In this document: positions 6,746 through 63,938 of the stretch, piece by piece | Position numbering within the stretch: position 1 is the first letter of the stretch | Layout: the number at the start of each line of letters is the position of its first letter | Assembly: GCF_901827155.1 (NCBI RefSeq) | Contig: NZ_LR594659.1 | Span: 434,001 to 498,000, forward strand | Direction: 5' to 3' | DNA: 64,000 nucleotides | Origin: Variovorax sp. PBL-H6 | GTDB taxonomy: Bacteria > Pseudomonadota > Gammaproteobacteria > Burkholderiales > Burkholderiaceae_C | Position numbers and translations under genes: made by a program | The notes under the pieces: generated by a model | Told to the model about the DNA's origin: nothing | The model's database searches: none | What the model saw: only the letters and a program-made list of their open reading frames with translations

Positions 6746-6778
6746 GAGGGCGCTGGCCCGGGCCCTGCACTGCACCCC

Positions 6779-7945: not shown

Positions 7946-7969
7946 GGACGGCACGAGCCCAGGCGCGCC

Positions 7970-9473: not shown

Positions 9474-9695
9474 GGTCGCGTTCGTGGTCGCTGGATCTTC
9501 CGAGGGGACGCGCTCATTGTCCGGCACGTCAGGGCCGGGACGCGTGCTGCGATGCGTAGGTTCGATCCCACAGAAGTTACGTCCATACGCTGCCGGCCCG
9601 GCGCCACGGCCGTTATCAGCATTCATGCATCCGCACGTGGTCGCTGCTGCATCCGCGGCGCGCACGGACGGTGCTTCGATGTGAAGGGGAGACGT

Positions 9696-46845: not shown

Positions 46846-46897
46846 GCGCTTGTCTCCTTCGTTGTTGATGGAACCGATGCCGCGGCGCGGGCGACCT

Positions 46898-47647
46898 TCA
46901 GTGCACGCCGAGCGCGGCGGATATCTCCCGCTGCGCCTCGATGAACTCGGGCGCAAGCGGATCGCGCGGGCGCGGCAGCGTCAGGCGGAACTCGGCCTTC
47001 AGCTTGCCCGGGTGCGCCGCCAGCACGATCACCCGGTCGGCCAGGTAGACCGCTTCGGAGATGTTGTGGGTGACGTAGACCACGGTCTTGCGCGTCTTCT
47101 GCCAGATGTCCGTCACCAGCCGCTGCATCTCCTCGCGCGTCATGGCGTCGAGCGCGGCGAAAGGCTCGTCCATGAGCAGCACGCCGGGGTTGTAGGCCAG
47201 CGCGCGGGCGATCGCGACGCGCTGCTGCATGCCGCCGGACAACTCGTGCGGAAAGGCGTCCGCGAACTTGGTCAGCCCGACCAGCCGCAGGAATTCCATG
47301 GCCGTTTCGCGCCGCTCGGCCGTCGGGATCTTCCGCATCTCCAGCCCGAATTCGACGTTGCGCCGCGCGGTGCGCCATGGGAAGAGCTGCGCGAAGTCCT
47401 GGAACACCACGCCGCGATTGCTGCCCGCGTCATCGCTGCCATCGCCGATGCGGATGGTGCCCTGCGTCGGATGCAGGAAGCCGACGATCATGTTCATGAT
47501 GGTCGTCTTGCCGCAGCCGCTCGGGCCGAGCACGCAGACGAATTCGGCGGGCGCGACCTGGAGCGACACATCGTCCACCGCGAGCACCTCGCGGCCGGCG
47601 GACTGGTAGCGGTAGGACACGTGCTCGATTGCGATCGCTTCTGCCAT
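46898..47647 (-). CDS. ABC transporter ATP-binding protein (SsuB/TauB type)
   Basis: This 249-residue ATPase has Walker A GPSGCGKTT, signature LSGGMQQR and Walker B VLLMDEPFAALD. It belongs to the nitrate/sulfonate/taurine class and powers the two adjacent permeases. The ATG at 47647 follows the GGAGACAGCC ribosome binding site. A short gap of 61 nt separates it from the upstream SDR gene. Confidence 0.93.
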   Translation of the reverse strand: MAEAIAIEHVSYRYQSAGREVLAVDDVSLQVAPAEFVCVLGPSGCGKTTIMNMIVGFLHPTQGTIRIGDGSDDAGSNRGVVFQDFAQLFPWRTARRNVEFGLEMRKIPTAERRETAMEFLRLVGLTKFADAFPHELSGGMQQRVAIARALAYNPGVLLMDEPFAALDAMTREEMQRLVTDIWQKTRKTVVYVTHNISEAVYLADRVIVLAAHPGKLKAEFRLTLPRPRDPLAPEFIEAQREISAALGVH

Positions 47648-47708
47648 GCTGGCTGTCTCCTGTTGTTCGATGCCGATTGCCGGCGGGGCGCCCGCAACGC
47701 GCGGCGGC

Positions 47709-48440
47709 TCACTGCCCGCCGGTGCCCGTGATGCTGGTGCCTCCGCAGACGAAGAGCGACTGCCCGGTGATGAAGCCGCTGCGCTCGTCGAGCAGGAAGC
47801 CCACCGCATGCGCGACATCGCCGGGCTCGCCGACGCGGCCGACCAGGATGTTCTCGACAACGGTCTGCCGCTGCACGCTGCCGAACGGATGCCCTCGGTT
47901 GAAATGCGTGGTGGCGACCGGGCCGGGCAGCACGGCGTTGACCGTGATGCCGTGCGCCCCGGTCTCGATGGCAACGGTGCGCGTCAGGCCGAGCAGGCCG
48001 GCCTTGGCCGACGCGTAGACGCTGCGCGCCGACTTGCCCAGCACCGCCCGCGAGGAGATGTTGACGATGCGCCCGAAGCCGCGCTCCTTCATGCCCGGCA
48101 CCAGCGCCTGGGTGAGCAGCAAGGCCGCGCCAAGGGTGATGTCGGTCACGTAGCGCAGCTCGTCGATGGTGGCGTCCATCAGCAGCGCCGGGCAGTTGGC
48201 GCCGGCGTTGTTCACCAGCGAATCGACCGCATGGCGCTCGGCGATGCGGCGGCCCGCTTCGCGCGTGGCCGCCATGTCGGACAGGTCCGCCGGGTAGAAC
48301 ACGAGCCGCGGATGGCTCTCCCGCGGCGCAGAACGCTGCACGGCGATGACGGTCATGCCGTCTGCCAGCAGCTTCTGCGCGACGGCCTCGCCGATGCCCG
48401 AGCTGGCACCGGTGACCACGACGACGCGATCGCGGCTCAC
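47709..48440 (-). CDS. Short-chain dehydrogenase/reductase
   Basis: This 243-residue SDR has TGASSGIGEAVA, NNAGAN, NISSRA and YASAKAG. The start is GTG, overlapping the amidohydrolase stop as GTGA, so it is co-translated. It is more similar in the active site to FabG-type reductases than to the SDR at 34180. It likely oxidises an alcohol intermediate. Confidence 0.9.
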   Translation of the reverse strand: MSRDRVVVVTGASSGIGEAVAQKLLADGMTVIAVQRSAPRESHPRLVFYPADLSDMAATREAGRRIAERHAVDSLVNNAGANCPALLMDATIDELRYVTDITLGAALLLTQALVPGMKERGFGRIVNISSRAVLGKSARSVYASAKAGLLGLTRTVAIETGAHGITVNAVLPGPVATTHFNRGHPFGSVQRQTVVENILVGRVGEPGDVAHAVGFLLDERSGFITGQSLFVCGGTSITGTGGQ

Positions 48441-49804
48441 AGGTAGTCCACGATCTTCCAGCTGCCGGGCTCGGCGTTCACCACGTTCTTGGTCGACTTG
48501 CCCGGCCGGCGGTCGGCATACACCCTGCCTTCCTTCATCACGATCTGGATGTTCTTCTTGTCCTGCAGGCAGCGGATGTCCTGGAGCGGGTCGCCGCCGA
48601 CTGCGACCAGGTCGGCGATCTTGCCGACCTCGAGCGAGCCGATGTCCTTGTCGAGCTTGATCGCGCGTGCCGCATTGATGGTCGCCGTCTGCAGCGCGTG
48701 CATGGGCTTCATGCCGAGGTCGACGTAGAGCGCAAGCTCGGACGCATTGGTGCCCATCTCGGGGTCGAAGCCCATGTCGGTGCCCATCGCGATGTTCACG
48801 CCGGCCTTGTACATGGTCTGGAAGGTCTCGAAGCAGTTGTGCTGCAGGCCCTTCATCTTCTTCAGCACGAACTGCGAGGTGCCCTGCTCGCGACGCAGGT
48901 CGATGGCATGGTCGGTGCGATGCGACAGCGTGGGCGTGACATAGGTGCCGGTCTTCACGATGGCGTCGACGCTCTCGCTGTCGCAGAACACCATGTGCTC
49001 GATGGTGTCGGCGCCGGCCTTCAGGGCCATGCGCTGGGCCTGCGGCGTGAAGCAGTGCACCGCGAGGATCTTGTGGAAGGCGTGGGCCTCGTCGGCAAGG
49101 GCGTCCAGTTCCTCCTGCGTCATGTTGCGAATGTCCGGCTCCTCCTTGTCGGTGCCGCCGCCGCCCGAGGCGCAGGTCTTGATGACGTCGCAGCCCTGCA
49201 GCAGGTTGGTGCGGGCGAGCTTGCGCAGCTCCCAGGGGCCGTCGGCGGTCTGGAAGCCGATGCGCAACGCGGCGCGCGGCTGGATCAGGTCGAGGTGCGA
49301 ACCGGTGATCGAGGTGAATGCCGCGACCAGCATGCGCGGCCCCTCGACGATGCCCATCTCGATCGCGTCCCGGATGGCGCAGGCCTCGCGCACCAGCAGC
49401 CCGCGCGATGCCGACAAGCCCATGTCGCGCAGCGTCGTGAAGCCCATGTCGAAACACAGCTGCGCATGGAAGAGCCCGTACATCTGCTGCAGCTCGGGCG
49501 TGATCTCCCACTGCGCCACCCGGAAGTTGTGGAAGGTGAGGCAGTTGAACATCATGGTGTGCAGGTGCACGTCCAGCATGCCGGGGATGAGGGTCGCGGA
49601 GCCGCAGTCCAGCACCTCGGCGTGGTCAGGGACGCGGATCGAATGCTTGTTGCCGATCTGCTTGATGCGGCCGTCTTCGATCACGATCACCGGGTCGTCC
49701 ACCGGGTCGGCGCCGGTGCAGTCGATCATTTTCTTGCCGGTGACGTAGCGGATCCCGGTCTGCGCGGGCGTGGTCGACTGGACGACGGAGGCGTTCAAGC
49801 TCAT
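48437..49804 (-). CDS. Amidohydrolase family protein (prolidase-like group)
   Basis: This 455-residue metal-dependent hydrolase has DVHLHTMM near the N-terminus of the barrel, a probable carbamylated Lys in CDVIKTCASGGGG, AVHCFTPQ, IEHM and an Asp in MGTDMGFDPEMG. The overall pattern matches the Xaa-Pro dipeptidase/imidazolonepropionase-like group that cleaves amide bonds. The start at 49804 is preferred over a longer frame. The CobW GTPase lies 43 nt upstream, suggesting supply of metal to this enzyme. Confidence 0.9.
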   Translation of the reverse strand: MSLNASVVQSTTPAQTGIRYVTGKKMIDCTGADPVDDPVIVIEDGRIKQIGNKHSIRVPDHAEVLDCGSATLIPGMLDVHLHTMMFNCLTFHNFRVAQWEITPELQQMYGLFHAQLCFDMGFTTLRDMGLSASRGLLVREACAIRDAIEMGIVEGPRMLVAAFTSITGSHLDLIQPRAALRIGFQTADGPWELRKLARTNLLQGCDVIKTCASGGGGTDKEEPDIRNMTQEELDALADEAHAFHKILAVHCFTPQAQRMALKAGADTIEHMVFCDSESVDAIVKTGTYVTPTLSHRTDHAIDLRREQGTSQFVLKKMKGLQHNCFETFQTMYKAGVNIAMGTDMGFDPEMGTNASELALYVDLGMKPMHALQTATINAARAIKLDKDIGSLEVGKIADLVAVGGDPLQDIRCLQDKKNIQIVMKEGRVYADRRPGKSTKNVVNAEPGSWKIVDYL

Positions 49805-49847
49805 GGCGGCTGGCTCTTTCTCGTGCGTGGAAAAACGGATCGGAAAT

Positions 49848-50981
49848 TCAGCGTGCGCTCGCGGCTTCCGCCGGTTCGGGCGCGCGCTGGCGGAACAGGG
49901 AAATCGTGTCGCGGAAGCGTGCATAGACCTCGGGCCGGATCACCATGTTCCGGAGGTCGCGGCCGCCCTCGAACCGCAGTGCGGCGAAGGTGTCGCGCAG
50001 CGCCTGCTCGTCGAGTCCGCGCACGATGAAGACCATGCGCGAGCGGCGGTCATCGTCGGGCCATTGGTCCAGCGGGACCGGTTCGCTCACGATGGTCTGC
50101 ACGGCGTGGACCGCATAGGGTCGGCCCTCGACGTTGACGATGCCCTTGACGCGCAGCAACCCCGCGCCGCGGAAGCCGGACAGCAGGTGCTGCCACAGCA
50201 CCAGCCCGGGCACGGTGGCCTCGCCCTCGTGCACCAGCGAGAAGGTGCGCACCGGCGAGCGGTCGTCGGCTGTCGGCGACGCGAAGGCCTCGCTCGCCAG
50301 CCACTGGCGGACTTCCGCGAGGCTGCCGCCGGCCTGGTGCGGCGTCCCGTCCAGCAGGCGCGCGTCGAGATCGCCGTGAGCGGCACGGACCTGTCGCGCG
50401 CCGGGGTTCAGGGTGCGCAGGCGGGCGGACAGCGCTTCGACGGCCTGTGGCTCGGCGACGTCGACCTTGCTGAGCACCAGCACGTCGGCCACGGCGACCT
50501 GCTTGATCGACTGTGCGTACCTGTCGAGGTGCTGCAGCGCGTGCAGGCTGTCGGCCATCGTCAGCACCACGCGCAGCTCGAAGTGGCGGCTGATCTCGGG
50601 ATCGACCTGCAGCATCTGGATGATCGGGACCGGATCACCGAGGCCCGAGGTCTCGATCAGCACGCGGTCGAAATCGGTCTCGGTGCCGGCGACCCGTCGG
50701 TCCAGCAGGTTGAGGAGGCTGGCGGCGACTTCCTCGTGAACGTATTCGCACATGCAGCCGCCATCGACCAGGCGCATGCGCTTGCTCGGGGCCTGGATCA
50801 GCACGTGGTCGACGCCGACCTCGCCGTACTCGCTGACCACCACGGCGGCCTGGCCGCAGGCGGGCTTCTTCAGCACCGCATTGACAAGGGTCGTCTTTCC
50901 GCTACCGAGAAAGCCAGTGATCACGGCAACGGGAATCCGTTGTGCCGACGGCGAGTTCACATCCAATTTTGTCTCCTGCAT
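49848..50981 (-). CDS. CobW/COG0523 GTPase, first copy
   Basis: This 377-residue G3E GTPase has Walker A TGFLGSGKTTL, the SEYGEVGVD block, and LETSGL-type ETSGLGDP. The usual CxCC metal site is changed to CMCE in VDGGCMCEYVHEE. The C-terminal domain has VKGIVNVEG and the family's VVFIVRGLD-like end. COG0523 proteins deliver or insert metals such as zinc. The neighbouring amidohydrolase is the likely client; this is inference. Confidence 0.9.
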   Translation of the reverse strand: MQETKLDVNSPSAQRIPVAVITGFLGSGKTTLVNAVLKKPACGQAAVVVSEYGEVGVDHVLIQAPSKRMRLVDGGCMCEYVHEEVAASLLNLLDRRVAGTETDFDRVLIETSGLGDPVPIIQMLQVDPEISRHFELRVVLTMADSLHALQHLDRYAQSIKQVAVADVLVLSKVDVAEPQAVEALSARLRTLNPGARQVRAAHGDLDARLLDGTPHQAGGSLAEVRQWLASEAFASPTADDRSPVRTFSLVHEGEATVPGLVLWQHLLSGFRGAGLLRVKGIVNVEGRPYAVHAVQTIVSEPVPLDQWPDDDRRSRMVFIVRGLDEQALRDTFAALRFEGGRDLRNMVIRPEVYARFRDTISLFRQRAPEPAEAASAR

Positions 50982-50986
50982 CTTTG

Positions 50987-51004
50987 CAACCGTTCGAGCG
51001 GTTG
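50987..51004. promoter_or_regulatory. Inverted repeat upstream of the first CobW gene
   Basis: A perfect 6-bp inverted repeat CAACCG-N6-CGGTTG lies just upstream of the CobW start, between it and the LysR gene. It may be a regulator site. No further evidence. Confidence 0.35.
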
Positions 51005-51077
51005 GCGTGCAGGCGACTATAGGAAGAGATGCTCAACGCATCAAATAGACAGACGAAATCGGTCGAATTCTGCTGGT

Positions 51078-51980
51078 CTATGCATCGTCGTTGGCCGCGC
51101 TGGCGCGTGCGTACACGTCGCGGATCATGTCCGCCATGCGCAGCGCGGCGGCGGTGCGATGCCCGTCCTTGCGCCACAGCAATGCCACCCAGCGGCGCGG
51201 CGTCGGCGTGAGCAGGCGCACCTTGCTCACGCCCGCGAGCGCATCGATGGCACCCGCTGCGAGCACCGAGGACAGCGCCGTGCTGCGCACGATCGACAGG
51301 ATGGCCTCGATGGAGTTGACTTCGAGCACCACGTTGGGTGTCGCGCCCAGGTCGCCGAGAAATCGATTGAGCATCTGGCGCGACGAGAACTCGCGCGTGA
51401 GCAGGACCATGCGCTCATCGCGCAGCGCCTGCATCTCCACCGAGGGGGCATTGGCGAGCGGATGCGACGGCCCGACGGCAAGCACCAGCTCCTCCTCGAA
51501 CAGCTTCTCGGCGGCGATGTGCTCGGTGTCCTCGGACACGTAGGCGATCGCAAGATCCAGGCTGCCGTCCAGCAATTCGCGCTCCATCGCGGCACGCGGC
51601 AAGAGGCGCGCGACGACTTGAAGGCCGGGGTGCTCCTGTGCGAACTTCGCCAGCACCGAGCTGACCTGCGAGCGCGAGAACGAGTGGAACAGCCCGACGT
51701 TCAACGTGCCGCGCAACAACCCTTGCAGTTCGGAGACGGTGTTGATCGCGGCATCCATCTCGACCAGCATCCGCTGCGCATGCGGCAACAGGCCGCGGCC
51801 CGCCTCCGTCAAGACCACGACGCGCGGGAAGCGATCGAACAGCACCGCGCCGAGTTCGGTCTCCATCTGCTTGATCTGGTGGGAGAGCGTGGGCTGCGCG
51901 ATGCCGAGCACCTCCGCGGCTCGCGTGAAGCTGCCGGTGCCGGCGATGGCGACCAGGTAGCGAAGGTGACGCAGTTCCAT
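51078..51980 (-). CDS. LysR-family transcriptional regulator
   Basis: This 300-residue LTTR has the N-terminal helix-turn-helix SFTRAAEVLGIAQPTLSHQIKQME and effector domain starting at GTLNVGLFHSF. It is first in the minus-strand run, 96 nt upstream of CobW, and probably regulates that run. It shares the MELRHLRY start and most helix-turn-helix residues with the LysR at 41823-42734. Confidence 0.92.
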   Translation of the reverse strand: MELRHLRYLVAIAGTGSFTRAAEVLGIAQPTLSHQIKQMETELGAVLFDRFPRVVVLTEAGRGLLPHAQRMLVEMDAAINTVSELQGLLRGTLNVGLFHSFSRSQVSSVLAKFAQEHPGLQVVARLLPRAAMERELLDGSLDLAIAYVSEDTEHIAAEKLFEEELVLAVGPSHPLANAPSVEMQALRDERMVLLTREFSSRQMLNRFLGDLGATPNVVLEVNSIEAILSIVRSTALSSVLAAGAIDALAGVSKVRLLTPTPRRWVALLWRKDGHRTAAALRMADMIRDVYARASAANDDA

Positions 51981-52248: not shown

Positions 52249-52545
52249 CTATCGCGCTTCCTGCTGCAGGTTGCGCTCGAACCGCTCCAGCAGTGTGTGC
52301 ATGGTGCGACGCGCTGCGGAGAAGTCTTCTGAACTCTGACGCACGGCCAGATCCTGCTCATAGTCTGCGCGCGTGTCGAATGCGCACTCCCAGCGTACAT
52401 CCGGACCAGGCCCCTCCAGCTTTGTGAAGATGCGACCGCCCGGCAGCCCGAGGCGCATCCGGATCTCGCTCGCGCGCCGCCGCTGCGCCAAGACCGCCTC
52501 GACCTGACCGGGCAGTGCGTAGTAGTTGGTGATTTCGATAACCAT
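52249..52545 (-). CDS. Small NIPSNAP-like/dimeric alpha-beta barrel protein
   Basis: This 98-residue protein reads MVIEITNYYALPGQVEAVLAQR, then RIFTKLEGPGPDVRWECAFDTRADYEQ, the pattern of ferredoxin-like dimeric barrel proteins (NIPSNAP, EthD and ABM families). The ATG at 52545 follows AGGAGACC. It is divergent from the enolase operon and may share its GntR-controlled promoter region. The function is unknown. Confidence 0.7.
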   Translation of the reverse strand: MVIEITNYYALPGQVEAVLAQRRRASEIRMRLGLPGGRIFTKLEGPGPDVRWECAFDTRADYEQDLAVRQSSEDFSAARRTMHTLLERFERNLQQEAR

Positions 52546-52638
52546 GAAGCGGTCTCCTGAGTGGGCAACAGTGGACGCATTGTGGAGACGCGCTGCACCT
52601 CGAGCATCGGTGGTTGATCGCTTGACAATCACGATGTT

Positions 52639-52657
52639 TGATCACACACTGTGATCA
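52639..52657. promoter_or_regulatory. Putative GntR operator, copy 1
   Basis: The sequence TGATCACACACTGTGATCA is a perfect inverted repeat (8-bp arms, 3-nt spacer). It lies between the divergent genes at 52249 and 52717, with TTGACA at 52622-52627 just before it. The same architecture recurs at 60025-60043. Short palindromes of this size are typical for FadR-subfamily GntR proteins. Confidence 0.8.
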
Positions 52658-52716
52658 CAGTACGGGTCCCGCAGATAGGCTGCGCGGACCTCAGCACCCC
52701 TGCGAGGAGTTCATCG

Positions 52717-53877
52717 ATGCCGACGATCCGGTCCATAGACACGCTGCTGGTCCAGCTTCCCACGCGACGAGAGCACAAGTGGACCGGTCTGACCGAATCC
52801 ATCGGCCGCTATCTGCTGACGCGCGTGGTCGACAGCGACGGGCGCATCGGTTGGGGCGAGGCCCCGGCGTTGAAAGATTGGGGGGGTGAGTTCGGCCGCT
52901 ACTTCGGCGAGTCCACGGCCATCGCCCGGATGGTCATCGAGAAGTACCTCGCCCCTTCGCTCGTCGGCGTCGAACTCGGGAACTTCGCTGAGATGCACGC
53001 GCGCATGGACGCGGTGATCCGCGGATATCCGTATGCCAAGGCCGCCGTCGAGTTTGCGGCCTACGACGTCACCGGCCGCTGGCTCGGCCTTCCGGTCCAT
53101 ATGCTGCTCGGCGGCAAGGTGCGCTCACGAATCATGGTGACCCACTCGATCGGGCTGATCCCGATCGCCGAGGCGGAAAAAGAAGTGGCGCAGGTCGCGG
53201 CCGAAGGGATCCGGACGATCAAGATCAAGATCGGGGTCGACGCGAAGCGCGACATCGACATGGTGCGCACGGTCCGGGCAGCGGTCGGTGACGATGTCGA
53301 ACTGTGCGTGGACGCAAACGAAGGCTATCGCACGCCCGGCGAGGCCATCGCCACGGTGCGGGCCATGGAGCCGTACAGACTCAAGTATGTCGAGCAGCCG
53401 GTGATGGGCATCGAGCGCATTGCCGAGGTGGCGCGCGCGATCGACCCGCCGGTGATGGCGGACGAGTCGGCCTGGAACGCGCACGACGTGATCCAGATCA
53501 GCGAGCACCGCGCAGCGCAGATCGTGTCGATCTACAGCACCAAGCCGGGCGGGCTCTACAAGGCCATGGAAGTCGCGGCCGTATGCCGTGCGGCCGGAAT
53601 CATCTGCAACGTGAACGGTTCGGTCGAGACCGGCATCGGCAACCTCGCCAACATCCACCTGGCCGCGGCGGCGCCTGCTGCGACCCTGTCCTGCGTGGTC
53701 CCGGTGTCCACGCCGGCCGAATGGCAAAACGGCCAGGTCGGAGGCATCTACTACCGCGACGACCTGATCGCCGCGCCGATGAAGCTTGTCGACGGCGGCA
53801 TCGAAGTCCCGAGCGCGCCCGGCATGGGCATCGATGCCGATCTCGCCAAGATCGAGAAGTACACGGTGCGCGACTGA
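52717..53877 (+). CDS. Enolase-superfamily enzyme (muconate-cycloisomerase subgroup)
   Basis: This 386-residue enzyme has TIKIKIGVDAKRD (KxK), LCVDANEGY, KYVEQPV and VMADESAWN for the metal ligands, and IVSIYSTKPGGLYK for the opposite Lys. The N-terminal capping domain is complete. The start at 52717 follows GAGGAG with 7-nt spacing; a more upstream ATG would lie in the operator. It is the first gene of the enzyme operon and is diverged from the enolase at 38489. Confidence 0.9.
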   Translation: MPTIRSIDTLLVQLPTRREHKWTGLTESIGRYLLTRVVDSDGRIGWGEAPALKDWGGEFGRYFGESTAIARMVIEKYLAPSLVGVELGNFAEMHARMDAVIRGYPYAKAAVEFAAYDVTGRWLGLPVHMLLGGKVRSRIMVTHSIGLIPIAEAEKEVAQVAAEGIRTIKIKIGVDAKRDIDMVRTVRAAVGDDVELCVDANEGYRTPGEAIATVRAMEPYRLKYVEQPVMGIERIAEVARAIDPPVMADESAWNAHDVIQISEHRAAQIVSIYSTKPGGLYKAMEVAAVCRAAGIICNVNGSVETGIGNLANIHLAAAAPAATLSCVVPVSTPAEWQNGQVGGIYYRDDLIAAPMKLVDGGIEVPSAPGMGIDADLAKIEKYTVRD

Positions 53878-53906
53878 CCCACAACATACATCCAAGGAAG
53901 TTCCAG

Positions 53907-55046
53907 ATGCGCAAAGTAATCATCGAGCGGCAGGTCAAGGCGATCGCCGAGCACAAGCTCGACGCCATGGTGTCGTGTTCCCCGGAAAACTACGCCTACG
54001 CCACCGGCTTCGTCGTGCCCTCGCAACCACTCATCAGGCACCGCCATGCGATGGCGATCGTCACGGCTGACGGCACGACGGAGCTGTTCTCGGTCGATAT
54101 GGAAGCCAGCACCGTGAAGCGCCGTGCACCGGAGGTGCCCACGCGCATCTGGGCCGAGTTCACCGACGACGCGATGGTCGTGCTGGCCGACCAACTGGAC
54201 AAGCTCGGACTCGGGCGCGCGCGCATCGGCATCGAGATGGACTACCTGCCGGCCGGCGACCTGTCGCGACTGCAGAAGGCGCTCCCCGGGGCGCAGTTCG
54301 TGCACTGCGAGCAGATCCTCGCGCGACTGCGCCAGATCAAGACGCCGGAGGAGATCGCCTTGCTGCGCCGCCTGTCGCGCATCGCCGATCAGGCCATCAC
54401 GGACGCGCTCGCGTCGGTCAGGGCCGGCGATTCGGAAATGGACATCGCCGGGCACCTGACCCGCAACGTCTATGCCTTGGGTGCCGAGCACTTCAAGCTG
54501 ATGATCATCGCGACCGGCGAGCGCAGCGTGCTGCCCAACGTGGGCCCGAGCGAGCGCAGGCTCAAGCCGCGCGACGTCTGCCGCGTCGAGATCTTCTCGG
54601 TGATCGACGGCTACCAGGCGGGGGTGTGCCGCACCGCGGTCGTGCACGAGGCGCCTCCCAAGGCGGAGGCCATCTGGCAGCACCTGGTGGACTGCAAGTA
54701 CCGCATCATGGAAATGGTGAAGCCCGGCGCGAGCTGCCATGCCATCTACGACGCCTTCATTGCCAAGCTGGCCGAAATGGACCTGCCGCCGATCTCCTTC
54801 GTCGGCCATGGCATCGGGCTGCACCTGCACGAAGACCCTTACCTGGGCAAGACACCTGTCCTCGGCCGGCCCGGAACCGATGCGCTGATCGAGGAGGGCA
54901 TGGTGCTCGGCTTCGAACCCCTGTGCTATGAAACGGGGCACGGCTTCGGCATGCAGAACAAGGACATGCTGCTGGTCACGGCCAATGGCTGCGAACTGCT
55001 GTCCGACTACGCCGATACCGACAAGCTGCTGGTCGTCAAAGGCTGA
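53907..55046 (+). CDS. M24-fold (creatinase/prolidase-like) protein with altered metal site
   Basis: This 379-residue protein has the N-terminal creatinase domain and the C-terminal pita-bread domain. The usual metal-ligand pattern is broken. The first Asp is Glu (RVEIFSVIDGY), the second Asp is Gly (QAGVCRT) and the last Glu is Lys (NKDMLLVT). The His in GHGIGL and the Glu in LGFEP remain. The His before the metal site (usually HYxPS) reads NVGPS. Creatinase is a known metal-free member, so it may be a non-peptidase hydrolase or lyase. Confidence 0.88.
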   Translation: MRKVIIERQVKAIAEHKLDAMVSCSPENYAYATGFVVPSQPLIRHRHAMAIVTADGTTELFSVDMEASTVKRRAPEVPTRIWAEFTDDAMVVLADQLDKLGLGRARIGIEMDYLPAGDLSRLQKALPGAQFVHCEQILARLRQIKTPEEIALLRRLSRIADQAITDALASVRAGDSEMDIAGHLTRNVYALGAEHFKLMIIATGERSVLPNVGPSERRLKPRDVCRVEIFSVIDGYQAGVCRTAVVHEAPPKAEAIWQHLVDCKYRIMEMVKPGASCHAIYDAFIAKLAEMDLPPISFVGHGIGLHLHEDPYLGKTPVLGRPGTDALIEEGMVLGFEPLCYETGHGFGMQNKDMLLVTANGCELLSDYADTDKLLVVKG

Positions 55047-55080
55047 GCAGCGGCCCACAATCCCTTCTGGAAAGTTCTCC

Positions 55081-56520
55081 ATGCGCACGCTCATCGAGCA
55101 CCTTGAATTCGCGTTCCTCGTCGATGCCGACGACACGGTGGTGCGCGACGCCAGCATCCTCCTCGACAACGACCGCATCGTCGACATCGGGCGGGCGGCG
55201 GACGTCGCGGCACGACACCGCGGCGAGCACTTCGACCGGGTGATGGACGGGCGCATGCTCGGCATCTGTCCCGGCTTCGTCGACAGCCATGTCCATTTGT
55301 CCGAGACCCTGTCACGCGCCGTGTTCCCGGACAACCTGAACACGCGCGCCTGGGTCTTCCACTGGGCCAAGCCGTTCTACGCACACATCACGGAGGAAGA
55401 CGAGTACTGGGGTGCGTTGCTCGGCATCACCGAGATGCTGCGCAACGGCACCACCTGCTTCATCGACATGGGCTCGCAGTACGACCCAGGCATCACGGTC
55501 CGTGCGATGGAGAAGACCGGCATCCGCGGCGTGACCGGCCGGCATGCCGCCGACAATCCGCCGCCCGAACTGCCGCGCGGCTGGACCGAGGAAATGGCGC
55601 GGCACCATTTCTTCCCGAATGCACAAGCGGCACTCGCCGAGCTGGAAGCCTGTGTGCGCAAGTACGACGGCGCTCTCGACGGTCGCGTGCGTTGCTGGGT
55701 GAACATCGAAGGCAAGGAACCCTGCACGCTCGAGCTCCACGTCGGCGCCCAGAAGCTGGCGGAGCGGCTCGGCGTCGGCACCACCTACCACCTGGCGACC
55801 TCGATCGAGGAGGCCAAGGTCTGCGAGGACAAGTATGGTTGCTGGCCGATCACGCGCATCGACCGCGCGGGGGGCATCGGCTCCAACCTGGTCATCGCCC
55901 ACGGTGCGGCGGTCAGCGACGAGGAAGTGAAGCTGCTCGCGGCCCGCGGCGCCAAGGTCGCGTTCTGCCCGTGCTCCTCGTTCAAGCTCGGCAAGGGCGC
56001 GACGGCGATCGGCAAGTATCCCGAGATGGTCGCTGCCGGCGTGACGGTCGGGCTCGGTACCGATGGCGTGTCGGCTGCCGGCAACATGAACCTCATGCGC
56101 CAGATGCTGATCGTCGCCGGCATGTTCAAGGACGCACGCATGAAGCCCGACGTGTTCACGGCCCGGCAGGCCCTCAGGGCAGCGACGATCGACGGCGCCA
56201 AGGCGGCAATGTGGGACCACGAGATTGGTTCGCTCGAGGTCGGCAAGAAGGCCGACTTCATCCTGTTCGATCTCGATCACATCGAATGGACGCCTTTTCA
56301 CGATCCGCTGCAGGCACTGGTCTTCTCGGCATCGACAGCGTCGATCTCGCAAACCTGGGTCGACGGCAAGACGCTCTACAGCGAAGGCAAGGTCCACGGG
56401 GTGGATGAGCCTGCGCTGCGTCGCAAGGCCAGGGAACTGGCGGCCGCAGCCGTGGAGCGCGCGGGGCTGCACGACGAGGACGTCGAAACCACGACGACGC
56501 TGTACGACAACGGCAACTGA
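55081..56520 (+). CDS. Amidohydrolase/deaminase family protein (ATZ/TRZ-like)
   Basis: This 479-residue metal-dependent hydrolase has FVDSHVHLSETL, a further barrel His in TYHLATSI, VIAHGAAVSDEE and GLGTDGVSAAGNMNL. It matches the group of S-adenosylhomocysteine deaminase, AtzB and TrzN enzymes that remove amine or halide groups from N-heterocycles. The ATG at 55081 has a weak upstream GGAAAG. It is 34 nt after the M24 gene and touches the next start (TGATG). Confidence 0.9.
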   Translation: MRTLIEHLEFAFLVDADDTVVRDASILLDNDRIVDIGRAADVAARHRGEHFDRVMDGRMLGICPGFVDSHVHLSETLSRAVFPDNLNTRAWVFHWAKPFYAHITEEDEYWGALLGITEMLRNGTTCFIDMGSQYDPGITVRAMEKTGIRGVTGRHAADNPPPELPRGWTEEMARHHFFPNAQAALAELEACVRKYDGALDGRVRCWVNIEGKEPCTLELHVGAQKLAERLGVGTTYHLATSIEEAKVCEDKYGCWPITRIDRAGGIGSNLVIAHGAAVSDEEVKLLAARGAKVAFCPCSSFKLGKGATAIGKYPEMVAAGVTVGLGTDGVSAAGNMNLMRQMLIVAGMFKDARMKPDVFTARQALRAATIDGAKAAMWDHEIGSLEVGKKADFILFDLDHIEWTPFHDPLQALVFSASTASISQTWVDGKTLYSEGKVHGVDEPALRRKARELAAAAVERAGLHDEDVETTTTLYDNGN

Positions 56521-57683
56521 TGCGGATCCTGCGTTCCGTCGCGCTGATCGATCGCGCGGGCAGTTTCGATCTTGTGCTCGAGGGCGAGCGCGTGCGTGAC
56601 ATCTCGGCCGCCGCGGATGCGGCAGCGCCGCGCTGGCTGGCCATGCCATCGCTGGTCAACCTGCATGCGCATGCCAACCGTGCGTATGCGGCGCCGGCAC
56701 GGCGTCCGTCGTCGCTCGGCGATGCGGTGGCTTCGGCGAAGCGCGAGCGCGCCAGCGCCACCACCGAGGACATCAGGGCGCGAGCTTCCAAGCTGCTGCG
56801 CAGGTCAATCGAGCATGGCGTTTCCTCAGTACGCACGCACACCGACATCGATGTCGTCACCGGCATGCGCGCGATCGACGGGGTGCTGGCGGCCGCATCC
56901 GAAGTGACATCGGCGCTCGATGTCGAGATCGTGGCCTTTGCGAGCGCGGCTGCTGATCCGAGTCATCCCGAGACGCGAGCGCTGTTCTCCGAGGCGGTCG
57001 GCCGAGGTGCTTCGCTGATCGGCGCCGTGCCGGCGCTTTGCGCCCACCCCGCGCGGGCGCTGGACGCACTGCTCGACACCGCGATGGCGCTGGACGTTCC
57101 AGTCGACGTTCATCTCGACGAACATCTCGACGCGCCGGGCGCACTGATCCACCGGCTGGTGGAAGCGACCGAGGCGCGTGGCCTGCAGGGTCGCGTCACG
57201 GTGAGTCACGCCTGCGTGCTTTCGGCCCTGCCGTGCGCCGATGTCCGCCGGCTCCTCGACCGGATGGCTGCCGCAGGCATTGTGTTGGTGGTGCTGCCCG
57301 AGCTGAATCTCTATCTGCAGGCGCGTGGCGACGGTGCGCCGCGCGTGCGCGGGTTGGCGCCTGTCATCGAGGCGTTGAAGTCGGGTGTCCCGGTTCGTTT
57401 CGGCACCGACAATGTCAGGGACTGGTTCTTTCCGTTCGGGGATGGCGACATGCTCGAGACCGGCTTCGTCGGTGCCTTGGCCTCGCAGGTCGATGCCGCG
57501 GAGGAACTCGGCGCATTGATCTGCGGCGGCCGGCGGCGCATCGAAGTCGGCGATCTGGCGGACCTGCTGCTGGTACCGGCCTCGTGCTTCGACGATGCAC
57601 TCGCAAGACGCCCCGCCGGGCGCGTGCTGCTGCGGCGAGGGGAGGAAGTGGGGGCCGCCGCGCGCGGTGCGATGGCAGCGGTC

Positions 57684-58721
<1,038 letters not shown>

Positions 58722-58723
58722 CG

Positions 58724-59194
58724 TCAGGCCAGCTCGAAAATGGCATCGACCTCGACGGCGACATTGCGCGGCAGCGAATTGCAGCCGACCGCCGCACGTG
58801 CATGGCGGCCTGCATCGCCGAACACCTCGACCATGAGGTCGGAGGCGCCGTTGATCACCTTGGGATGCTCGCCGAACTCGGGCGTGGCGTTGACGAAGCC
58901 GCCGAGGCGCACACAGCCTGCGACGCCTTCCAGGCTGCCACCCAATGCGGTGCGCAGCTGGGCAAGAATGTTGATGGCGCAAAGTCGCGCCGCCTGCTGC
59001 GCTTGCTCGACCGACAAGTCCTTGCCCACCTTGCCCACGTACTGGTCCTTGCCATCGGCAGTCGGGACCTGCCCCGCGATGTAGATCAGAGAGCCGCTCT
59101 TGCGGGCGGGAACATAGTTGGCGGCTGGAGCGACTGCCTTCGGCAGTTCGATGCCGAGTTGGGCCAGGCGTGCTTCGGGTCCTTGGGTTGTCAT
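58724..59194 (-). CDS. Rid-family protein lacking the catalytic arginine
   Basis: This 156-residue YjgF/Rid-fold protein has LIYIAGQVPTADGK, INILAQLRTALG and AAVGCNSLPRNVAVEVDAIFEL. In E. coli RidA the position before LP is Arg105 needed for imine deamination; here it is Ser (NSLP). An extra N-terminal stretch of about 25 residues precedes the fold. The protein may be a Rid-like binder or a different hydrolase. It is co-transcribed with CobW and follows the GntR gene. Confidence 0.88.
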   Translation of the reverse strand: MTTQGPEARLAQLGIELPKAVAPAANYVPARKSGSLIYIAGQVPTADGKDQYVGKVGKDLSVEQAQQAARLCAINILAQLRTALGGSLEGVAGCVRLGGFVNATPEFGEHPKVINGASDLMVEVFGDAGRHARAAVGCNSLPRNVAVEVDAIFELA

Positions 59195-59219
59195 TCTCTG
59201 GAGTCCTTGGAGGTGAGTG

Positions 59220-59966
59220 TCAGTTGCCGAAATAGAGATCGTCGAGCGGAGCGGAAAGCAGGTCGTCCCCATTCGATTCGCTGAGCGCAGGGGCGAGCGA
59301 GCTGCCCGTGCTTCGAATGTCGCGCAGCACGCCCTGCCTGGCCATCGCGGGCTTCCTGGTGCGCAGGCCCTCCAAGATCTCGACATGCGCCGAGGCATCC
59401 CACGGCGTGCTCGGGGACAGCAGCGACAAGTACATGGTGGGTCCGAACTGCAGCCACAGCGACTCCACCAGCGGCATGACCACCTCGGTCTTGGAGGCCT
59501 CGTACAGCGTGAAGTGAAAGCGCTGGTTCGAGGACAGGCAGCCGAGCAGGTTGCGCTTCGCAATCGCCTCCAGCAGCTCGTCGTTGATGCCGGTCAAGGT
59601 GCTCAGCAAGGCCGGGGTGCCGTTGCGGCACGCCATCTCCGTCGCCATGCCCTCGATCAGCTCCCGCACGGCGAAGAGTTCCTTCAGCTTCTTGGGGGTG
59701 AGCCGCGGAACGCGAACAGAACCGCTGGCGGTGTCTTCCAGCGCATTGATGACGACCAGCCGCGCCAGCGCCTCCCGGATCGGCATCGGACTGGTGCCGA
59801 AGCTGCTGGCCAGCTTGCGCAGGCTCATCACCTGCCCGGGCACGAAAGCACCGACCATCAGGCCGCGCCGAAGGCGTTGGAAGACTTCCTCCGGGACGCT
59901 GCCGCGCGCGCGTTTGCCCGGTACTTCAGGTGTGGTTTGTGGAAGGCGCTCGGCGGTCTTTTCCAT
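59220..59966 (-). CDS. GntR-family (FCD) transcriptional regulator
   Basis: This 248-residue regulator has an N-terminal winged helix (VFQRLRRGLMVGAFVPGQVMSLRKLASSFGTSPMPIREAL split here by length) and a C-terminal FCD ligand-binding domain with ELFAVRELIEGMATEMA. It is divergent from the ABC transporter operon, with operator copy 2 between them. It very likely binds both operator copies and controls both operons and itself. The ligand is presumably a pathway compound. Confidence 0.92.
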   Translation of the reverse strand: MEKTAERLPQTTPEVPGKRARGSVPEEVFQRLRRGLMVGAFVPGQVMSLRKLASSFGTSPMPIREALARLVVINALEDTASGSVRVPRLTPKKLKELFAVRELIEGMATEMACRNGTPALLSTLTGINDELLEAIAKRNLLGCLSSNQRFHFTLYEASKTEVVMPLVESLWLQFGPTMYLSLLSPSTPWDASAHVEILEGLRTRKPAMARQGVLRDIRSTGSSLAPALSESNGDDLLSAPLDDLYFGN

Positions 59967-60014
59967 GGGACTCTCTCGTTGCGTGTGTGATGCGGGTTAT
60001 CCCGGTTGTCCGTG

Positions 60015-60044
60015 ATTATAAGTGTGATCACACTATGTGATCAA
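60015..60044 (-). promoter_or_regulatory. Promoter of the GntR operon
   Basis: On the minus strand TTGATC (60039-60044) and TATAAT (60015-60020) are 18 nt apart. The operator copy 2 covers the -35 and spacer, so binding would block RNA polymerase. This suggests autorepression. Confidence 0.65.
60025..60043. promoter_or_regulatory. Putative GntR operator, copy 2
   Basis: The sequence TGATCACACTATGTGATCA is a perfect inverted repeat with arms identical to those of copy 1 at 52639. It lies between the GntR gene and the divergent ABC transporter operon. The two copies differ only in the central 3 nt. Confidence 0.85.
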
Positions 60045-60143
60045 GACGAGTTTTCAGGCCTTCGACAGTTCAACCCTAAGCCTCCATGGCCAAGAGGGCA
60101 AGAGTTGGTTCATTCACACACTCAACGACACGGACGGTATCCC

Positions 60144-61145
60144 ATGCGACTCCTGCAACTGCGCATTCCCTCGTTCTCCCGCCTCCGCACGGCTGCCCTG
60201 GCGGCCGCGCTTGCCGCCACTTCCACCGCATGGGCCGCCGATGAAGTGAAAGTGCGGTTCAGCTGGAAGCTCAAGGGCGAGTACGGACACCTCTACCTGG
60301 CACAGGAGCAGGGCCTCTACGCCGCCAAGGATCTGACCGTGCGGATGGGCGAGGGCGCGGGCGCGCCCGCCGCCCTCGGCGCGCTGTTGCAGGGGCAGGA
60401 AGACGTGGTGGTGATGCCCGCCATCTTTGCGGTGTCGGCGATCCAGAAAGGCATGCCGGTCAAGATCGTCGCGCTCTACCACCCGAAGACTCCCGTGGTA
60501 CTGATTTCCCACCCCGACAAGCCCGTGAAGCAACCGAAGGACCTGGAAGGCAAGACGGTCGCCCACTCGGTGGGAGAGACAGGCACCTCCTACCTGGCCG
60601 TCTTCTGTGCGGTCAACGGCATCGACTGCGACAAGGTCAAGAAGGTGCAAATGGATGCGCAGTCGCGCGTTCCCCAGTTTCTTCAGAAGCAGGTGGATGC
60701 AGTGAGCCTCTATCGCACCAGTGATCTGCCGGTGCTCGAGGCCAAGGCCGGCACCAAGTTCCCGCTGCTCGACCTGGCTGAGAACGGTCTCGCCATTCCC
60801 GGGCTGGCCGCGGTGTCGAGCAATGCGATCATCGCCAAGAGGCCCGATGTGCTGAGGCGCTACCTCGCGGCGGTCAATGAAGGCATCGCCGCAACGCGCA
60901 AGGATCCGAAGTCGGCCGCCGCCGCCTTGATGAAGTCCTGGCAGGGCAGCCCGCCCCAGGATGTCGTGCAAGCGCAGGTGCAAGCCACGATGGACGCAGT
61001 GAAAACCGAGGCCGGCAAGCCGGTCGGCTGGATCGATGCGAAGGCGATCTCGCAGGCGCTGGACCTGATCAAGACCGACGAGGCGATCGGGACACCCAAG
61101 CCCGTGGAGACTTTCTTCACCAACGACCTCCTGCCTGCCCTGTGA
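60144..61145 (+). CDS. ABC substrate-binding protein (NMT1/THI5-like)
   Basis: This 333-residue periplasmic protein has a signal peptide (ends near TAWA) and mature VKVRFSWKLKGEYGHLYLAQEQGLYAAKDL, the start typical of NMT1/SsuA-like binders. The chosen ATG at 60144 gives a normal signal peptide; upstream in-frame sequence covers the operator. It is the first gene of the transporter operon under operator copy 2. The substrate is unknown. Confidence 0.9.
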   Translation: MRLLQLRIPSFSRLRTAALAAALAATSTAWAADEVKVRFSWKLKGEYGHLYLAQEQGLYAAKDLTVRMGEGAGAPAALGALLQGQEDVVVMPAIFAVSAIQKGMPVKIVALYHPKTPVVLISHPDKPVKQPKDLEGKTVAHSVGETGTSYLAVFCAVNGIDCDKVKKVQMDAQSRVPQFLQKQVDAVSLYRTSDLPVLEAKAGTKFPLLDLAENGLAIPGLAAVSSNAIIAKRPDVLRRYLAAVNEGIAATRKDPKSAAAALMKSWQGSPPQDVVQAQVQATMDAVKTEAGKPVGWIDAKAISQALDLIKTDEAIGTPKPVETFFTNDLLPAL

Positions 61146-61164: not shown

Positions 61165-61989
61165 ATGACCCAACTCAAACACTCCCAAGCCGTTGCGGTG
61201 CCCACTGTGGACAAGTCCAGGAAGAAAGCCGCAGGCGGCAGCTTCACCGAGCGCTATGCGTCCGTGCTGCTGGCTGCGGCCATCCTGCTCGCGTGGCAGG
61301 TCGCGGTCCCGCTTCTCGGCCTGTCGGAATTCGTACTCCCGACGCCGCTGGCCATCGGCAAGCGGATCGTGACGGACTTCGATCTGCTCGCGGCCCACTC
61401 GTACATCACCTTGCTCGAAGTGCTTGCGGGCTTTCTTGCCGGGGTGCTGATTGGCATTCCCCTGGCGCTGGCGATCTTCTATTCGAAAGCGTTCGAGCGT
61501 GCCGTCTATCCGCTGCTGGTGGCGCTGCAGACCGTGCCGAAGATCGCGCTGGCACCCCTGCTGGTTCTCTACCTCGGCTACGGCTGGGGCCCCAAGATCA
61601 GCCTCGCGTTCCTGATCTCCTTCTTCCCGATCGTGATCTCGACGGTGGTCGGCCTCCAGTCGCTGGACAAGGGCCTGGTGAACATGGTGCGCTCCATGGG
61701 GTCCACCGAATGGCAGACCTTCTTCAAGGTCAGGCTGCCCGCCGCCATGCCGAGCATCTTCGGCGGCCTGAAGGTGGCCATCTCCCTGGCCGTGATCGGC
61801 GCCATCATCGGCGAGTACATCGCCGCGGAGCGAGGCCTCGGCTACCTTCAACTGCAGGCGACCTCGCAGTTCGATACGACGCTGAACTTCGCCACCGTCG
61901 TCACCATCTCCCTGCTCGGCGTGCTGCTCTATTTCGTTCTGGCGCTGATCGAGTCCAAGGTCTCCTATCAACGTGAAAGCGCCAAATGA
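61165..61989 (+). CDS. ABC transporter permease (SsuC type)
   Basis: This 274-residue permease has about six hydrophobic helices and the EAA loop MGSTEWQTFFKVRLPAAM. It belongs to the same class as the permeases at 44218 and 45029. It is the only permease in this operon, so it would form a homodimer. It follows the binding-protein gene by 19 nt. Confidence 0.9.
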   Translation: MTQLKHSQAVAVPTVDKSRKKAAGGSFTERYASVLLAAAILLAWQVAVPLLGLSEFVLPTPLAIGKRIVTDFDLLAAHSYITLLEVLAGFLAGVLIGIPLALAIFYSKAFERAVYPLLVALQTVPKIALAPLLVLYLGYGWGPKISLAFLISFFPIVISTVVGLQSLDKGLVNMVRSMGSTEWQTFFKVRLPAAMPSIFGGLKVAISLAVIGAIIGEYIAAERGLGYLQLQATSQFDTTLNFATVVTISLLGVLLYFVLALIESKVSYQRESAK

Positions 61990-62052: not shown

Positions 62053-62841
62053 ATGAGTAATGCAGCCAATGTGCGGGTCGAAGGCGTCTCCAAGACCTAT
62101 GAAGTGCGTGCCGGCGACGATGTCAGGGCGCTCGACCGCGTCGACCTCGACATCGCCCCCGGCAGCTTCGTGGCCATCGTCGGGCCCAGCGGATGCGGCA
62201 AGAGCACGCTGCTGTCGCTCCTGGCCGGATTGACCCCCGTGTCCTCGGGCCGCCTGCGCATCGATGGCGACGAAATCCTCAAGCCGCATCCGAAGGCCGG
62301 TGTGGTTTTTCAGTCCGATCTGCTGTTGCCTTGGAGGAGCATCATCGACAACGTGTTGCTGCCGGTCGAGATCAAGGGGCGGAACCGGGCCGCCAGCATC
62401 GGCCGCGCGCGCGAACTGCTCGCGCAGGTGGGCCTGCAGGGATTCGACAACAAGTTCCCGTTCGAACTCTCGGGCGGTATGCGCCAGCGCGTGGCAATCT
62501 GCCGCGCCCTGATCCAGGAACCGGGGCTGCTGCTGATGGACGAGCCCTTCGGCGCGCTGGACGCCCTGACGCGCGAGCAGATGATCATGGATCTGCAGAC
62601 CATGTGGCTGCGGTTGGGCAACACCGTGTTGTTCATCACGCACGGCATCGACGAGGCGGTGTTTCTCGCGGACCGGGTGATCGTCATGTCCCCACGCCCA
62701 GGCCGCGTGGACCTCGACCTGGCCATCGACATTCCGCGACCGCGCCGCTGGAGCGGCATCCACGAGAACCCCGCCTTTCAGCACCACGTGCGACAGGTGC
62801 GGGAGATGTTCGAAGCCAAGGGCGTCCTGGTCGCACACTGA
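62053..62841 (+). CDS. ABC transporter ATP-binding protein (SsuB type)
   Basis: This 262-residue ATPase has Walker A GPSGCGKST, signature LSGGMRQR, and Walker B LLLMDEPFGALD. The ATG at 62053 follows GGAGGAGGG. A 63-nt gap after the permease gene shows no other feature. Together with the binding protein and permease it forms a complete importer of the nitrate/sulfonate class. Confidence 0.93.
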   Translation: MSNAANVRVEGVSKTYEVRAGDDVRALDRVDLDIAPGSFVAIVGPSGCGKSTLLSLLAGLTPVSSGRLRIDGDEILKPHPKAGVVFQSDLLLPWRSIIDNVLLPVEIKGRNRAASIGRARELLAQVGLQGFDNKFPFELSGGMRQRVAICRALIQEPGLLLMDEPFGALDALTREQMIMDLQTMWLRLGNTVLFITHGIDEAVFLADRVIVMSPRPGRVDLDLAIDIPRPRRWSGIHENPAFQHHVRQVREMFEAKGVLVAH

Positions 62842-62849
62842 GGTACAGC

Positions 62850-63938
62850 ATGAAAGTTTCGATTCTGGGCGCCGGCGCCGGCGGTGCCGCGTCCGTGGCC
62901 GAGCTCACGCAGGCCGGCCATGACGTGGTTCTGTGGAACCGCTCTCCTGAAACCCTCGCGCCGTTTCAAGCGCTCGAGGGCGTTCGCTACGACGGCGTGC
63001 TCGGCACGGGAATCGCTCGTCCGCGCCTGATCACCGCCGATCTGAGGGCTGCCATCGAAGGCGCCGACGCGGCGGTGGTCACGCTTCCGACCTTTTCTCA
63101 CGCGCCGGTTGCTCGCGCACTGGCTGCTGCCGGCTGGCCGGCGAACCGGCCGGTCGTCCTGAACCCCGGCCATACCGGCGGCGCGCTGGAGTTCGCCCAT
63201 GCCTGGCGCGAAGTGCGCCCCGACCTGCCGCCCATCGCCGAGTTCTCCACGCTGACCTACGTGGCCCGCAAATACCAGGCCGACGGCGTGACCGTCACCG
63301 GCCGTGCGCGCCAGGTCCGCGCCGCAGCGCTGCCGGGCGGCAATGCGGCACTGACCGCGGCCTGTGCGCTGTTCCCGGGCGCCACGCCCGTCGGCGACGT
63401 GCTCGCCTCCGCACTCGCCAATGCCAACCTGGTCCTGCATCCGCCCGGTGCGGTGCTGGCCGCCGCATGGGTCGAGGCGACGCATGGCGATTTCACCTTC
63501 TACGTCCAGGCCATGACGCCAGGTGTCGCTCGCACGATGCGTGCGCTCGACGACGAACGACTTGCCGTTGCCGCGGCCTTCGGCCATCACCTGCCGAACT
63601 TGATCGGCGAGATGCAGCTGATCGGCACGGTGGAGTCCTCGGTGAGCGACACCCAGGACTTCGTGGCCGCGATCGCGGGGGGCGAGGCGAACAAGCGCAT
63701 CAAGGGGCCCGACTCGCTCCAGCATCGCTATTACCGCGAGGACTTCGGGCACGGCCTGTTGCCATTCCTCGAGCTTGCGGCGGTTGCCGCCGTCGCCACG
63801 CCGGTGGCGCGATCGCTCTACACGCTCGCGCAGGCCTTCGTCGGCGTCGATTACGCGAAGGGCGGGCGCACCGCAGAGGCGATGGGAATTGCCGGGATGT
63901 CCAAGAACGAACTTCTACAACATGTGAGGCAGCCATGA
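62850..63938 (+). CDS. Opine dehydrogenase-like NAD(P)-dependent enzyme
   Basis: This 362-residue protein begins KVSILGAGAGGAASVAELTQAGHDVVLWNR, a Rossmann motif, and has a C-terminal domain with conserved HPPGAVLAA-like segment and KGPDSLQHRYYREDFGHGL. This is the octopine/opine dehydrogenase family, which makes or splits N-carboxyalkyl amino acids. It is 8 nt after the ATPase gene, so it belongs to the transporter operon. The stop overlaps the last gene's ATG as ATGA. Confidence 0.88.
   Translation: MKVSILGAGAGGAASVAELTQAGHDVVLWNRSPETLAPFQALEGVRYDGVLGTGIARPRLITADLRAAIEGADAAVVTLPTFSHAPVARALAAAGWPANRPVVLNPGHTGGALEFAHAWREVRPDLPPIAEFSTLTYVARKYQADGVTVTGRARQVRAAALPGGNAALTAACALFPGATPVGDVLASALANANLVLHPPGAVLAAAWVEATHGDFTFYVQAMTPGVARTMRALDDERLAVAAAFGHHLPNLIGEMQLIGTVESSVSDTQDFVAAIAGGEANKRIKGPDSLQHRYYREDFGHGLLPFLELAAVAAVATPVARSLYTLAQAFVGVDYAKGGRTAEAMGIAGMSKNELLQHVRQP

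Follow-up and report, generated by a model that had tools for sequence, protein, structure and literature searches.

A doubled 10-bp operator proposed for an FCD-type GntR regulator and its catabolic gene cassette in Variovorax sp. PBL-H6

A stretch of 64,000 nucleotides of the Variovorax sp. PBL-H6 genome (contig NZ_LR594659.1, positions 434,001 to 498,000; hereafter the window) carries the gene of an FCD-type GntR regulator together with two operator-like palindromes and a set of breakdown and uptake genes. Sequence comparison makes it probable that this GntR protein is a local, self-regulating repressor acting on both operators as paired units of 10 base pairs (bp), and the two operators would very probably let one repressor control about a dozen of these genes. 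The initial annotation had described the sites as inverted arms around a spacer of three nucleotides, TGATCACA-N3-TGTGATCA, at 52639-52657 and 60025-60043; both were found there, with identical arms and a different N3. The sequence part of that geometry holds, while as the basic unit of binding the 10-bp GT-N4-AC palindrome TGTGATCACA is favored over it. Outside the 19 bp both sites are asymmetric, each with a single perfect TGTGATCACA and a degenerate copy:

52639..52657, no strand: operator 1, TGATCACA-CAC-TGTGATCA, kept upstream of the enolase operon in orthologous loci
52650..52659, right side of operator 1: perfect 10-bp unit TGTGATCACA, with just one other exact genome copy
52637..52646: degenerate second unit of operator 1, TTTGATCACA, 13 bp from the perfect unit
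60025..60043, no strand: operator 2, TGATCACA-CTA-TGTGATCA, kept upstream of gntR in orthologous loci
60023..60032, left side of operator 2: perfect 10-bp unit TGTGATCACA, the other exact genome copy
60036..60045: degenerate second unit of operator 2, TGTGATCAAG, 13 bp from the perfect unit

In some sites only, a third unit could be seen by eye further out in the same 13-bp period. When the window was shuffled 100 times with dinucleotides preserved, the palindrome matched at up to three mismatches 0.11 times on average and never twice. The initial annotation had proposed a genome scan and named many random copies as the outcome that would speak against a regulon; across the 6,871,554 bases of the genome, the 19-bp palindrome occurred at up to two mismatches only at the two window sites. 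Four further matches had three mismatches each, a reversed control pattern gave one match at up to three mismatches in the whole genome, and the exact 10-mer TGTGATCACA was present once per operator and nowhere else.

Orthologous loci were retrieved with the regulator as query, and 37 of them were examined, the window included, with regulators 53-100% identical. The 19-bp palindrome was present at up to two mismatches in 35 of these loci (94 sites in total), and by gene order the conserved sites precede enolase, gntR, transporter or opine-dehydrogenase genes. In both alpha- and betaproteobacteria the sites are conserved alongside the FCD regulator and the genes it is proposed to control. Many rhizobial loci have three sites and one (L074) has four, because there the opine-dehydrogenase operon has its own operator. 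Among relatives with less than 47% identity, a control that is partial for L008-L064 because of the short length of these loci (2-4 kb), a 19-bp site at up to two mismatches was found solely in L042 (the same as L149; regulator 44-46% identical), a locus with enolase, RidA, opine-dehydrogenase and M24 genes.

A similar agreement emerged within the genus, where the exact palindrome was present in six of 101 genomes, the same six that hold the regulator at an identity of at least 81%; random placement would give this agreement once in 1.27 billion, a figure that only excludes a random sprinkle, the six genomes sharing ancestry. Allowing one mismatch added two genomes, one with a diverged cassette (G160) and one with a partial cassette on a short contig (G246), and G243 has one additional site, on a separate contig, immediately upstream of a gene for a paralogous substrate-binding protein (SBP), 58% identical to the SBP gene of the window. 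Eight genomes carrying the cassette or its diverged form hold 22 exact copies of TGTGATCACA, 21 of them at the cassette itself or at groups of its genes that are detached from it or related to it (G160, G243, G912); the remaining one precedes another GntR gene (31% identical), whose helix, GTSAMPVRE, has the same signature residues as that of the window regulator. The Xanthobacter genome G910 illustrates this with two exact 10-mers: one belongs to a doubled operator at the cassette, the other stands singly before that second GntR gene, which is 31% identical and shares the helix signature. The regulator gene, the proposed target genes and the operators are linked and conserved together, as for a local autoregulated catabolic repressor.

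Because the core TGATCA is itself palindromic, each site has two possible readings, a single 19-bp inverted repeat and a pair of 10-bp units. Comparison of these sequences makes the second reading the more likely, with TGTGATCACA as the basic binding unit and the 19-bp palindrome arising from two units placed 13 bp apart. Exact 10-mers were found in 16 of 48 loci with regulators of 42% identity or less, in 19 copies against 0.46 expected, although eight of the 16 share the QIRDLA...TSVMPVREA helix (Limnohabitans and kin) and do not count as eight independent cases. Fifteen of these 19 copies sit 76-280 bp before the matched gntR region. When 29 other 10-bp palindromes of the same arm composition were counted in 42 loci, none had more than one copy, as compared to 52 for TGTGATCACA. 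In the locus L097, whose regulator is 46% identical, no 19-bp site was found at up to three mismatches, yet the exact 10-mer occurs three times. One copy precedes gntR and another a DpaA-like gene; the third separates two divergent opine-dehydrogenase-like genes, one of which is accompanied by further enolase and M24 homologues. As for the arrangement of the units, a second core (at least five of the six TGATCA positions) lay exactly 13 bp away from all 39 exact units of the 35 orthologue loci, and from 7 of 46 exact units of 34 other loci that had been selected as holding the unit or as close to loci that do. The doubled form therefore appears as a trait of the orthologue group.

The position of the sites relative to promoters bears on how the regulator may act. 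Of the 94 sites, 72 have an exact TTGACA at a distance of 10-13 bp, against a background of 0.5% for any gap of 0-19 bp on either strand, and the operator would therefore fall within the spacer of a likely sigma-70 promoter. The overlap with probable promoter elements that the initial annotation had noted was borne out by these counts and by the position of operator 2 over the -35 element of gntR and most of its spacer:

52622..52627, plus strand: TTGACA, probable -35 element of the enolase operon, followed by the 19-bp palindrome at 11 bp; the consensus scan did not report it
60015..60044, minus strand: probable gntR promoter from the promoter scan, with TTGATC (60044-60039), an 18-bp spacer and TATAAT (60020-60015)

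Promoter occlusion by the operator-bound regulator is likely on this evidence, and repression by occlusion with self-control is its simplest reading. GntR would occupy both operators, probably with two neighboring dimers on each, at the strong TGTGATCACA and at the weaker copy placed exactly 13 bp from it. Once bound, it would cover the -35 element and the spacer of the sigma-70 promoters and turn off the enolase-M24-amidohydrolase-amidohydrolase unit, the gntR-ridA-cobW unit, the ABC transporter with the opine-dehydrogenase-like gene and perhaps the 98-amino-acid open reading frame (ORF) that faces the enolase operon, until a compound of the pathway releases it.

Some FCD proteins activate transcription, such as CitO of Enterococcus (PMC4746285), and an activator or a mixed activator and repressor could be considered here as well. 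However, the sites overlap the -35 element or follow it closely instead of preceding it, which favors occlusion, and the gntR promoter has the same arrangement; we hold activation to be improbable. Still less credit can be given to another owner of the palindromes, with an accidental link to GntR. TGTGA and TCACA are CRP-like half-sites, which could point to a CRP/FNR-like regulator, and the gene of a LysR regulator (51078-51980) lies about 660 bp from operator 1. Neither window site has the TGTGA-N6-TCACA spacing, the genome holds two copies only, unlike what a global regulator would have, and a LysR match was found in the orthologous loci only in L066 (31%), whereas gntR was always present in these loci, which were fetched by gntR. 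Moreover, the 10-mer precedes other gntR genes in other gene neighborhoods. For reasons of spacing, genome count and conservation we reject ownership by CRP/FNR or LysR, and the chance we leave to it is very slight.

A more serious alternative is that a single GntR dimer reads the 19-bp TGATCACA-N3-TGTGATCA as one palindrome with a spacer of three nucleotides. Both TGATCA cores and their spacing are nearly invariant in the orthologue group, where the exact 10-bp unit occurs in only 39 of the 94 sites (89 of 94 at up to one mismatch), and a central spacing of three nucleotides is typical of FadR-subfamily sites (PMC4494728). On the other hand, in the 19-bp frame AC precedes GT, the opposite of the GntR consensus NyGTNxACNy (PMC4494728), which the 10-bp unit fits (GT-GATC-AC). 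Distant relatives mostly have the 10-bp unit singly, and each window site contains one perfect unit. We therefore regard a single dimer on the 19-bp frame as unlikely, while giving it some weight.

The proposed repression through paired 10-bp units has, besides the low count of exact units, a number of further points against it. In many rhizobial sites both units are imperfect, and the inner 19-bp frame is also well conserved, which would be compatible with one dimer spanning it; the 94 sites were picked by 19-bp similarity, so that half-site counts in them are biased towards the 19-bp palindrome, and the 34 other loci were in turn picked by the 10-bp unit or by closeness to loci that hold it, as described above. 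Two loci with the cassette genes and with regulators 55 and 53% identical (L093 and L094) had no site at up to three mismatches; their recognition helix ends in RS, that of the other orthologues in RE or RD. Co-occurrence counts non-independent events, as the orthologue loci share ancestry. Finally, the -10 element of the enolase promoter is a weak one, deduced at about 52645-52650 (CACACT), and the promoter scan of the region found one promoter as compared to a mean of 0.7 in shuffled sequence, a match that alone proves nothing.

A further feature concerns the regulators themselves, in which Arg50, Ser59 and Met61 (numbering of the window regulator) go with the 10-bp unit. We take these residues to correspond to Arg35, Thr44 and Thr46 of FadR. 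In a tally of 144 loci, six of them counted twice under two identifiers, 31 of the 78 with Met61 and 1 of the 66 lacking it had the exact unit no more than about 400 bp upstream of gntR. The signature rule was formed after this tally and then tested on 60 later-fetched loci, reduced to 57 by dropping three repeats, namely the window (L187) and two paralogues from the same genome that had already been used (L164 and L182). Among the 57, seven pairs of which are more than 90% alike, the unit at up to one mismatch was present upstream in 9 of 14 loci with the signature and in 5 of 43 without it (Fisher p = 0.0003), and the exact unit in 6 of 14 and 3 of 43, respectively (p = 0.004); random 450-bp stretches of the loci held the unit at up to one mismatch in 5% of cases. 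All five unit-bearing loci without the signature had Arg50-Ser59 and a Met at position 60 rather than 61, and five loci with the signature lacked the unit. The link between signature and unit is support, not proof, the loci being related by descent. Correlation between operator bases and helix positions known to touch DNA has been reported (PMC4494728). A large FCD clade with Arg50-Ser59-Met61 might read the shared core TGTGATCACA, with the cassette regulators having evolved the doubled, 13-bp-spaced operator and thereby separated their own genes from those of single-unit paralogues in the same cell; we offer this as a tentative possibility, for which the Xanthobacter genome G910 described above would be an example.

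The regulator and the genes around it are the following, with operon structure read from gene spacing and strand:

59220..59966, minus strand: gntR, FCD-type GntR regulator of 248 amino acids (PF07729, PF00392; nearest solved chain McbR, 4p9f)
58724..59194, minus strand: ridA-like gene behind gntR (PF14588, PF01042)
57684..58721, minus strand: CobW-family GTPase behind ridA (PF02492, PF07683)
52717..53877, plus strand: enolase-superfamily protein, muconate-cycloisomerase-like, first gene of operon 1 (PF13378, PF02746; nearest solved chains of muconate-lactonizing type)
53907..55046, plus strand: M24/creatinase-like hydrolase (PF00557, PF01321; prolidase metal-ligand positions altered)
55081..56520, plus strand: amidohydrolase of ATZ/TRZ type (PF01979)
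56520..57719, plus strand: second amidohydrolase, cytosine-deaminase-like (PF07969; NCBIfam matches below cut-off)
60144..61145, plus strand: NMT1/SsuA-type SBP, first gene of operon 2 (PF09084)
61165..61989, plus strand: ABC permease, named by sequence reading, conserved with the SBP and ATPase
62053..62841, plus strand: ABC ATPase, named by sequence reading, conserved with the SBP and permease
62850..63938, plus strand: opine-dehydrogenase-like protein (PF02317), with its own operator in many rhizobial loci
52249..52545, minus strand: ORF of 98 amino acids, divergent from operon 1 across operator 1, no Pfam match, possible further target

Operator 1 thus lies between divergent genes, the 98-amino-acid ORF and the enolase operon, and operator 2 between two divergent units, gntR-ridA-cobW on the minus strand and the ABC-transporter operon. 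The initial annotation had placed the sites before the enolase/M24/amidohydrolase operon and between the GntR gene and the ABC operon, and these positions were recovered; its proposal that one FCD regulator joins the genes is supported by co-conservation, by co-occurrence and by the lack of further genome copies. The regulon is wider than first described, including also ridA and cobW behind gntR and the opine-dehydrogenase-like gene behind the transporter. The 98-amino-acid ORF, kept by the enolase operon in L065, L066, L067, L075, L086, L146-L148 and L219, perhaps belongs to it too.

The assignment of the regulator rests on a GntR winged helix in its N-terminus (PF00392, 47.4 bits, cut-off 27) and an FCD domain in its C-terminus (PF07729, 65.2 bits, cut-off 24.3). 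Asn147, His151, His194 and Asp216 of the FCD domain were invariant in 25 aligned proteins, and may form the metal site, which in part of the subfamily is made of Asp/Asn and three His; the third His would then be replaced here by Asp. Its nearest solved relative by sequence is McbR/YncC of E. coli (PDB 4p9f, E 3.9e-21), of the VanR subfamily of the GntR family, which differs from it in the helix (SITPVREA in McbR, SPMPIREA here) and in the first FCD histidine, absent in McbR (NRLFR) and present here (NQRFH). For McbR, dihydrofolate sensing has been reported, as has binding to AT-rich sites that contain an ATATAT motif (PMC13343897).

Likenesses in operator architecture can be found in other members. 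Atu1419 of Agrobacterium fabrum is a repressor, likewise of FCD/VanR type, with a 10-bp palindrome and with sites overlapping the -10 and -35 elements; its dimer is reported to bind the 10-bp palindrome, and two sites can be bound together (PMC7797058). It differs in its operator, ATGTATACAT (GT-N2-AC), whose copies lie 190 or 109 bp apart with looping, as compared to the 13-bp pairs of TGTGATCACA (GT-N4-AC) in Variovorax. In NanR of E. coli, multiple GntR dimers bind cooperatively next to one another on short repeats (PMC8012715), much as in the arrangement proposed here, but the NanR site consists of three GGTATA direct repeats in place of two palindromic units, and NanR employs an N-terminal extension. 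Two dimers per site are suggested by analogy with these two proteins, Atu1419 on 10-bp palindromes and NanR on repeats. Weaker additional boxes 7-12 nucleotides from the center have been described for GntR-family palindromes (PMC4494728, 2015), whereas here a nearly complete second palindrome stands at a fixed distance. The distance between GT and AC in TGTGATCACA, four nucleotides, is outside the two or three reported there for FadR-subfamily sites, a usual trait of the subfamily and not a condition of membership.

The open literature, a scope that leaves RegPrecise outside, was searched for the motif. Together with GntR, TGATCACA was found inside an oligonucleotide or primer in the matching passages of PMC3187754 and PMC7356990, and also matched PMC5989213, on human SETBP1; TGTGATCA with GntR gave two matches, both among these three. 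Of the 12 publications matching TGTGATCACA, the sole one that is bacterial by title (PMC12724174) has the string in a primer in its matching passage, and a wider search on the motif returned nothing among the matches listed. Similarly, no description of the cassette was found in the open literature, and no publication combined four or three of the six gene-set terms.

The recurring genes of the cassette, which is common to Variovorax, Aminobacter, Shinella, Bradyrhizobium and others, are those for the enolase, M24, opine-dehydrogenase-like and RidA proteins, often with amidohydrolase, CobW and transporter genes, and the annotated rhizobial versions add DpaA-like, hydantoinase-like and isochorismatase-like genes. 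L075 encodes (5703-8613 and 8815-9801) a DpaA-like dehydrogenase, a hydantoinase/allantoinase-like enzyme, a 227-amino-acid protein with no Pfam or NCBIfam match and an isochorismatase-glyoxalase fusion. Another locus, L153 (G160 contig 6), has six exact 10-mers in 3.6 kb with transporter, DpaA-like and isochorismatase-like genes, the regulator gene lying on another contig. Relatives of the enolase (about 75% identity) were found on large plasmids of Aminobacter, Shinella and Phyllobacterium in 13 records (H1-H13), and in the one viewed, a plasmid of Shinella sp. HZN7, the entire cassette surrounds the enolase relative. This plasmid location suggests transfer between lineages.

Regarding the chemistry of the pathway, the solved relatives of the cassette enzymes have muconate-lactonizing-type, prolidase/creatinase-type, ATZ/TRZ-type and opine-dehydrogenase folds and indicate no compound. 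In the alignment of the M24 protein (53907-55046), Glu, Gly and Lys stand at the prolidase positions Asp, Asp and Glu (D to E, D to G, E to K), which we take to be metal ligands. Because these residues are replaced, the protein is more likely a creatinase-like, metal-free C-N hydrolase than a peptidase. The amidohydrolase at 55081-56520 has HLAT in place of the HLAE of relatives such as 3hpa, the Glu of which is catalytic in deaminases, and it may not be an ordinary deaminase. We take the pathway to degrade, by inference, an N-substituted amino acid or a cyclic amide. The window also holds, by ORF reading, a second cassette on the minus strand (45859-51980) with an NMT1-type SBP, an ATPase, an SDR, an amidohydrolase, a second CobW GTPase and the LysR regulator, in which the window scan found no operator copy. 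Two different CobW GTPase genes (57684-58721 and, by sequence reading, 49848-50981) are hence present, each beside amidohydrolase genes, and the GTPases possibly supply metal to the adjoining amidohydrolases.

Overall, the regulon reading is sound and the anatomy of the operator is revised, the system being one of a well-known kind with an unusual doubled operator. The cassette gains a testable candidate operator and regulon, and searching related genomes for the operator brings up detached pathway members at other places, an aid to identifying the substrate. The helix signature and the 10-bp site together represent a possible protein-DNA code for the wider clade, and the contrast between single and double units makes it possible to test directly how crosstalk between paralogous repressors is avoided.

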